A stretch of DNA of 64,000 nucleotides from Methanomethylovorans hollandica DSM 15978 (GTDB lineage Archaea; Halobacteriota; Methanosarcinia; Methanosarcinales; Methanosarcinaceae). Below, one piece after another: positions 13,364 through 14,505 of the stretch. Position 1 is the first letter of the stretch. Each line of letters begins with the position of its first letter. The translations under genes were made by a program, and so were the position numbers. Where the stretch lies: the NCBI RefSeq assembly GCF_000328665.1, contig NC_019977.1, forward strand, positions 930,001-994,000, read 5' to 3'. The notes beneath the pieces were generated by a model. It saw nothing but the letters and a program-made list of their open reading frames with translations. It had not been told where the DNA came from and did no database searches.

Positions 13364-13371
13364 TTTATATA
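13364..13371 (+). promoter_or_regulatory. Probable TATA box for the tandem microprotein genes
   Basis: TTTATATA in an AT-rich stretch, about 118 bases before the first microprotein ATG. Archaeal start sites lie about 25 bases downstream, which predicts a leader of roughly 85-90 bases. The rest of 13136-13481 is AT-rich and holds the divergent promoters of the cof unit and this locus; I see no other gene in it. Confidence 0.5.
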
Positions 13372-13481
13372 TAATAAATACAAATAATAAACTGGATTGA
13401 GTAACACCTGAATAGATCGTTATGTCAATCAGTTCGTATATTATTAGCAAATTGGTATTTATCCGGACGGAGGTGAAATTG

Positions 13482-13553
13482 ATGGAACAGAAAAAAGACG
13501 CACAGAAGAAGGGAAACACCCCTGCACCTGCTAAAGAACAGAAAAGGAAGTAA
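13482..13553 (+). CDS. Microprotein A, 23 residues, Lys/Gln-rich
   Basis: A tiny gene with an excellent ribosome site, GGAGGTGAAATTG before the ATG. The product starts MEQKKDAQKKG, contains a Pro/Ala middle (TPAPAKEQ) and ends in KRK; it is strongly basic and has no hydrophobic core, so it is likely unstructured or binds nucleic acid or another polymer. It is followed 58 bases later by a near copy (microprotein B), which is the main evidence that both are real genes: 17 of the 23 residues match with one residue of length difference. I recognise no family. Confidence 0.65.
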   Translation: MEQKKDAQKKGNTPAPAKEQKRK

Positions 13554-13611
13554 TTGCTGAAACTTACTGTATACTATTGATCAAATAGTATTCTTTGATG
13601 AGGTGAAAACA

Positions 13612-13686
13612 ATGGAACAGAGAAAGGATGTACAGAAGAAGGGAATAAAATCCCCGGCTCCTGTAAAAGAACAGAAAAAGAAGTAA
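13612..13686 (+). CDS. Microprotein B, 24 residues, tandem paralogue of A
   Basis: Second copy of the tiny gene, again with a ribosome site (GAGGTGAAAACA before the ATG). The product starts MEQRKDVQKKG, keeps the Pro-Ala-Pro core and the KEQKKK end. Several codon differences from copy A are silent or conservative (K/R, A/V), which suggests selection on the protein. A clear terminator follows 20 bases after the stop, so A and B form a short two-gene transcript. Function unknown. Confidence 0.65.
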   Translation: MEQRKDVQKKGIKSPAPVKEQKKK

Positions 13687-13706
13687 TTATCAAGAACAGC
13701 TTTACC

Positions 13707-13730
13707 GGGGGTATGAACCCCCATTTTTTA
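13707..13730 (+). terminator. Terminator after the microprotein pair
   Basis: GGGGGT (13707-13712) and ACCCCC (13717-13722) form a perfect stem with a four-base loop, followed by ATTTTTTA. The convergent nuclease-like gene ends at 13753, so it may also act there. Confidence 0.8.
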
Positions 13731-13752: not shown

Positions 13753-14505
13753 TCATAGGTCTGGGGTCTTTTTCTTCAGACTGAGCACATAGACCTCTAT
13801 GCCGGCACCAATACAGGCATTCACGCGGCTTTCAGCTATCCGGGCACAGACGATTCCCAATCTGATCTTTTCCGGGGGGACGTTATATTTCTCTGAATAA
13901 GTGATGAATCTTTGTACCTGTCCTATGGCATTGTCCCTGGCCTCGATTTCTATCTCTATCAAAAGATGTTCATTCTTTTTGCTTTTGAATACGACATCTA
14001 TCCTACCCCCTTCTGTCTCCACCTCAGTATCTATGAACTCCAGTCCTTCCTCTATAAGTTCGGGGAAAGTAGAGATCATTCTGGCAATATCCTGTTCTGA
14101 AATGGAACCATGGTCCGTTATATCATTCAGACAGCTTGCTTTTAGCACCCTGTTCAAATGAGAAGCGATATCTGTCCTCTTCTTATTGGTCTCATGAGGA
14201 TAAACATTCGTGATCTGTTCATTTTCCAGCTGGAGCAGTATACATATTTTTCCTAGCTTTTTGCTGCGGGAAATAGGAAGAGCACCAGTGCCTTTGCTAA
14301 CAACACCAATCCCATTTTTCCTGCTTATTATCCTGAGATCCTCAATCAGTTCCTCTTTTTCTTCATCTTTGAGAGTTGCAATATCCACACTTTCATGCCC
14401 TATATCATGCTTTTCCTTAATAGCATCAAGTAAATTATTATAGGAAAGAATATCCTTGTACTCTGCCTCAGCAGCTGTAAAAAGTCTATATGTAATCATT
14501 CTCAA
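13753..14505 (-). CDS. NucS/DUF91-like protein with altered catalytic motif
   Basis: A 250-residue protein whose C-terminal half resembles the NucS (EndoMS) nuclease domain: GGRIDVVF at 167-174, LLIEIEIEARD at 181-191, and GQVQRF at 195-200. Archaeal NucS uses Asp, then Glu 14 residues later, then Lys two residues on (D-E-K). Here D170 and E184 fit the spacing, but the lysine position is E186. The N-terminal half does not obviously match the NucS DNA-binding domain. It may be an inactive relative, bind DNA without cutting, or use a nearby residue. It stands alone on the minus strand, convergent with the microproteins. Confidence 0.6.
   Translation of the reverse strand: MRMITYRLFTAAEAEYKDILSYNNLLDAIKEKHDIGHESVDIATLKDEEKEELIEDLRIISRKNGIGVVSKGTGALPISRSKKLGKICILLQLENEQITNVYPHETNKKRTDIASHLNRVLKASCLNDITDHGSISEQDIARMISTFPELIEEGLEFIDTEVETEGGRIDVVFKSKKNEHLLIEIEIEARDNAIGQVQRFITYSEKYNVPPEKIRLGIVCARIAESRVNACIGAGIEVYVLSLKKKTPDL

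Follow-up and report, generated by a model that had tools for sequence, protein, structure and literature searches.

A tandem pair of genes for basic micropeptides under purifying selection in Methanomethylovorans

The window, i.e., the whole stretch of 64,000 bases of the Methanomethylovorans hollandica DSM 15978 genome that we analysed (G000:C2:930001-994000; genome of 2,714,013 bases in two contigs, the larger of 2,428,904), contains two adjacent micropeptide genes that are under codon-level purifying selection acting on the peptide and that belong to a new lineage-restricted micropeptide family, the MEQ class. Homologues are found in other genomes of the genus, for which we use G000 for the genome of the window and G001-G005 for the five others. 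Beyond the finding of the initial annotation, the genes have a structured, conserved mRNA leader and are part of a wider set of micropeptides. As to function, we tentatively favor an abundant, probably disordered polycationic peptide that would bind RNA, ribosomes, or another polyanion.

Results

Two tiny genes without known relatives

Two adjacent tiny genes with near-identical peptides had been proposed at this locus, and their coordinates proved right (Table 1); the same genes recur in four sister genomes, so they are no product of chance. The peptides share 74% identity, and a tblastn-type search of the whole genome with copy 2 as query returned two places only, which are the pair itself (E 9e-10 and 5.7e-4). 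A longer in-frame ORF (13422-13553) was rejected as the true gene because G002 and G003 carry a 1-nt indel that shifts its frame 5' of the Shine-Dalgarno (SD) sequence.

Both peptides are small (2.6-2.8 kDa), basic, free of cysteine, and end in K(R/K)K, while the invariant or nearly invariant positions of the class include the non-basic G11, P17, and Q8. Neither has a hydrophobic transmembrane stretch (gravy -2.3 and -1.9), unlike a type I toxin or membrane micropeptide. An attenuator or leader peptide was rejected, since the pair is followed on its right by a hairpin with T-run and then by a convergent NucS-like gene, with nothing downstream under control of its ORFs. Profiles of Pfam and NCBIfam gave no match up to E 10 for the MEQ pair or for the 29-aa peptides of the MAKK class described below, and a sequence search of the PDB, ribosomal chains included, returned one chance-level match only (a radial spoke protein, E 2.1). 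The suspicion that this family has no known relative is thus borne out for all three libraries.

Table 1. Features of the micropeptide locus (window positions) and of two YHTYPS-class copies elsewhere in the same genome
Feature	Position	Strand	Details
TATA box TTTATATATAAT of shared promoter	13364..13375	+	~107-118 bases ahead of copy 1
Conserved 5' leader	13395..13481	+	78-86% identity among G000, G002, G003
5'-terminal leader hairpin GATTGAGTAAC...CGTTATGTCAATC	13395..13430	+	11 pairs, one bulge
SD GGAGGTGA of copy 1	13469..13476	+	5 nt ahead of ATG
Micropeptide gene copy 1 (MEQ class)	13482..13553	+	ATG 13482, stop ends 13553; 23 aa, MEQKKDAQKKGNTPAPAKEQKRK
Intergenic inverted repeat ATACTATT-GATCA-AATAGTAT	13571..13591	+	ahead of copy 2; read by eye
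SD GAGGTGA of copy 2	13600..13606	+	5 nt ahead of ATG; conserved GTATTCTTTGATGAGGTGAAAACA context
Micropeptide gene copy 2 (MEQ class)	13612..13686	+	ATG 13612, stop ends 13686; 24 aa, MEQRKDVQKKGIKSPAPVKEQKKK
3' hairpin GGGGGT-ATGA-ACCCCC, then T-run (ATTTTTT)	13707..13729	+	six-pair G+C stem 13707-13722
Convergent NucS-like gene	13753-14505	-	NucS_C domain, Pfam E 4.6e-9
YHTYPS pseudogene	G000:C2:686686-686784 (L065 1501-1599)		SD lost, in-frame TAA
YHTYPS gene split just past start codon	G000:C2:2306671-2306864 (L076 1872-2065); gene C2:2306781		105-bp MITE-like insert

Selection acts on the peptides

Both ORFs are almost certainly coding. When all pairs of ten copies are pooled, pS is 0.41 and pN 0.07 (pN/pS 0.17), and in neutral simulations of three sets of three pairs with 31-33 substitutions each, 12-14 amino-acid changes compare with 20-23 expected (P from <0.0003 to about 0.011, and at most 0.012 in all nine tests). 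These simulations were run at transition biases of 1, 3, and 6 and left out simulated stops, a conservative choice. Between the window copies alone, there are 5 synonymous and 6 nonsynonymous changes (pS 0.41, pN 0.11; Fisher P=0.018; single-pair simulation P=0.16), so that the evidence is modest from this pair and becomes firm only when orthologues are added. The adjoining NucS-like gene shows a pS of 0.49-0.66, and synonymous sites have therefore had time to diverge. Lengths of MEQ copies differ by a whole codon only. Per site, nonsynonymous changes are thus not as frequent as synonymous ones, and the earlier proposal of selection for the protein holds up.

The MEQ class is confined to one genus

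We found the MEQ class in four of the five other Methanomethylovorans genomes, with three copies in G002, two each in G004 (one interrupted by assembly Ns) and G005, and one in G003. No copy was found in G001, a genome that is 76% complete. A search with copy 2 over 60 genomes (its own and those of relatives) matched the sisters at E 1.8e-7 to 3.3e-4, and profile searches did so at about 1e-5 to 1e-13. Nothing convincing emerged from a profile search of the other 106 genomes of Methanosarcinaceae, where the weak matches in other genera, inspected in part, were pieces of larger or unrelated frames. Likewise, a scan of 84,980 species genomes detected three MEQ loci only, which correspond to G002, G004, and G005; the relatives that it names are Methanomethylovorans sp. 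PtaU1.Bin093, Methanomethylovorans sp. MAG-12, and Methanosarcinaceae archaeon UBA470.

The genes adjoin the NucS-like gene in G000, G002, G003, and G004 and lie in a different neighborhood in G005. Copy 1 of the window differs by 7 substitutions from each of the first copies of G002 and G004 and by 11 from its own neighbor, copy 2, which in turn is nearest to copy 2 of G004 (3 substitutions in 45 bases). First and later copies also retain distinct SD contexts (GACGGAGGTGAAATTG and TGATGAGGTGAAAACA, respectively). Because the copies group by position and keep these differing contexts, the tandem duplication seems to predate the divergence of these species.

A conserved, structured leader

The strong ribosome site proposed for each gene is present, and the SD sequence of copy 1, GGAGGTGA, is complementary to the 3' end that archaeal 16S rRNA usually has. 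The TATA box, too, was found where the initial annotation had it, though we take it as shared by both genes only because no clear second one is seen. Among G000, G002, and G003, the core promoter is 80-82% identical, and the leader behind it is conserved to a similar range (78-86%), whereas identity drops to 35-50% in the DNA upstream of the promoter.

The leader opens with a hairpin that begins at the predicted transcription start, ~26-31 nt past the TATA box. Over six sequences, 95.5% of its cells are paired, compared to 16-41% in slid controls, and two pairs are changed on both sides; with so few sequences and boundaries chosen by the analyst, this is supportive rather than decisive. An RNA model of the hairpin matches every one of the six genomes once and no more among 150 candidates scored per genome, and since these matches are its own training sequences, the new information is solely the absence of a second one. 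The matches precede the MEQ genes in G000, G002, and G003 and a MAKK gene in G001, G004, and G005, where the same hairpin opens a leader of ~170 bases. In G004 and G005, where both classes are present, the MEQ leaders lack the hairpin. Rfam covariance models gave no match to the leader up to E 1. Between the genes, inverted repeats like that of the window are seen by eye at the equivalent place in G002 and G004.

All five gene-bearing genomes have a GGGG/CCCC hairpin 15-25 nt past the last copy. The perfect terminator that had been claimed is real as a hairpin and T-run, but archaeal termination usually relies on the T-run, and the logic of a hairpin terminator is bacterial.

Related micropeptide classes

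The MAKK class comprises genes for peptides of 29-38 aa (MAKKEEQKKGAKAPEP...KKKK; MAKKEEQKKGAKAPEPAKAASKAPAKKKK) that are related to MEQ and present in the three sisters G001, G004, and G005; the equivalent spot of G000 has none. In G001 and G004, it immediately precedes a gene for a DEAD-box helicase. Two further classes, YHTYPS (MVVKEQKK-GSKKP...YHTYPSSG-KRK, 31-36 aa) and CSCSCG (M-KEQKK...CSCSCG-KKK, 33-34 aa), are related to each other (E 5e-8), with a common N-terminal part and a differing C-terminal end, and match no Pfam or NCBIfam profile up to E 1. Homology of MEQ and YHTYPS is not supported by profile comparison (hhalign probability 4%), and the relation is one of similar design and neighborhood rather than of significant similarity or of one family. 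All four classes share an SD of the GGAGGTGA type and three basic residues at the end. An AlphaFold model of a YHTYPS peptide is devoid of secondary structure (mean pLDDT 63, pTM 0.10).

YHTYPS genes occur in G001, G002 (two), and G004 (directly after the MEQ pair) as well as in a second genus, g5 (G080 and G086), and in none of the remainder of the 238 genomes of the taxonomic class. A Methanosarcina match to their profile (G110, E 0.006) looks like the tail of a different reading frame, and YHTYP near the N-terminus of longer g5 proteins is at chance level (E 0.01-0.06 per genome over 112 genomes). One such protein, a 417-aa frame of G096 (L082 about 1500-1540), resembles the class with EYHTYPYSSG near its N-terminus, again with a chance-level E-value. 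Both YHTYPS copies of G000 are dead (Table 1), one of them through a MITE-like element with 33-base inverted ends that are 79% complementary; G002 has a similar element, which begins at L080:2421.

CSCSCG genes are located in G002 and G004 (L080:2193-2294 and L077 minus strand 2108-2004). Metal binding or modification of these peptides with Lys-rich ends is conceivable, and no modification or maturation enzyme was seen by eye among the ORFs beside the genes. The YHTYPS/CSCSCG leaders (L067, L075, L076, L077, and L080) have a common inverted repeat GGYTTAAC...GTTAAGCC, and most have a GGAATGGACA-like box ahead of the SD, which makes them a second candidate structured leader.

Discussion

What had been proposed for this pair from its sequence stands with regard to coding, purifying selection, and the lack of a known family, and homologues exist in related genomes. 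Binding to a polyanion stays plausible from composition (net charge +5/+6, pI 10.1-10.2), but composition alone does not show whether the target would be RNA, DNA, polyphosphate, or an acidic protein. Our tentative reading is that a bicistronic mRNA would be dedicated to producing, in quantity, two copies of a short, strongly basic cytosolic peptide that is probably disordered, as the AlphaFold model of the similar-design YHTYPS peptide suggests, with hairpins at its 5' terminus and 3' end that may stabilize or regulate it and tandem copies that may raise dosage. The peptide would then act as a small polycation-like modulator that binds RNA, the ribosome, or a different polyanion, a role unlike that of an enzyme, membrane peptide, or leader peptide. 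The lack of a constant partner gene, with the G005 pair in a different neighborhood, fits a free-standing product, and the MAKK gene upstream of a DEAD-box helicase is a weak hint at RNA. Given that MEQ genes are absent outside one genus and that peptides like them undergo decay or loss, their function is not one that methanogens share at large.

Possible, if rather doubtful, is regulation through a short linear motif, in which the peptide would bind a single specific protein and its basic charge would only help docking. The conserved acidic residues and the Q, G, and P positions, needless for a plain polycation, favor such a specific partner, and peptides of similar design carry the specific motifs YHTYPS and CSCSCG. 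Small proteins of such kind are known from Methanosarcina mazei, where they are reported to modulate the Mtr complex (PMC13370731, PMC12774963). Against it, no partner gene is kept alongside, and there is no PDB relative. We tentatively place the RNA- or ribosome-binding polycation first and this motif peptide second.

Other explanations fare less well. The H1-tail-like composition of the related MAKKEEQKKGAKAPEPAKAASKAPAKKKK class would suit a counter-ion of chromatin or DNA, akin to the Lys/Ala/Pro-rich tails of histone-H1-like proteins, but the window peptides are short and less charged, and with no other support this is improbable. Length and basic character also recall the ribosomal proteins eL41, bTHX, and SRA, of which the peptide could be a lineage-specific counterpart, and eL41 is indeed patchy in archaea and often missed through its tiny size (PMC3353972). 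This is nonetheless very improbable for peptides that are Lys/Gln/Pro-rich instead of Arg-rich, match no PDB chain including ribosomal ones, and are confined to one genus with variable copy number. A locus whose product is a regulatory or structural RNA, with incidental ORFs, is scarcely credible despite the conserved leader with its covarying hairpin, given codon-level selection for amino acids, length variation by whole codon only, and an SD ahead of each copy; on the codon substitution pattern, chance ORFs on a non-coding RNA were rejected.

A broader reading, speculative and in our view unlikely, would see MEQ, MAKK, YHTYPS, and CSCSCG as a set of free basic micropeptides that arose within this lineage and whose mRNAs have structured leaders, with each genome keeping one hairpin-led main copy while others are gained, tandemly duplicated, or lost. 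They might form a new kind of RNA- or protein-binding set, possibly regulated via its own leader. In any case, peptides down to 23 residues are here under clear codon-level selection in an archaeon, and current family libraries detect none of the four classes. The six genomes, which show gains, duplications, and pseudogenes along with a covarying leader that is shared, offer a compact case of micropeptide gene birth and decay that is directly testable in manipulable methanogens.

Among known systems, the Lys/Ala/Pro-rich tails of histone-H1-like proteins resemble the MAKK class in composition, a likeness and not a homology result, whereas the micropeptides are free peptides of 23-38 aa. The ribosome-associated eL41, bTHX, and SRA are alike in size and basic charge but differ in composition, and the window family is narrow in distribution and without a PDB sequence match. 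RiPP precursors with their conserved leader and variable core recall the common N-terminal part and differing C-terminal end of the YHTYPS/CSCSCG peptides, except that no modification enzyme is seen beside the CSCSCG genes, and the likeness does not concern the window pair. Another parallel is with the unannotated small proteins that Ribo-seq revealed in M. mazei (PMC11456600), although no MEQ relative was found in the other Methanosarcinaceae genera searched. Those, too, are tiny, unannotated archaeal ORFs, many of them restricted to a genus or family, and orphan small proteins of this sort are thus a known kind in methanogens (PMC11456600).
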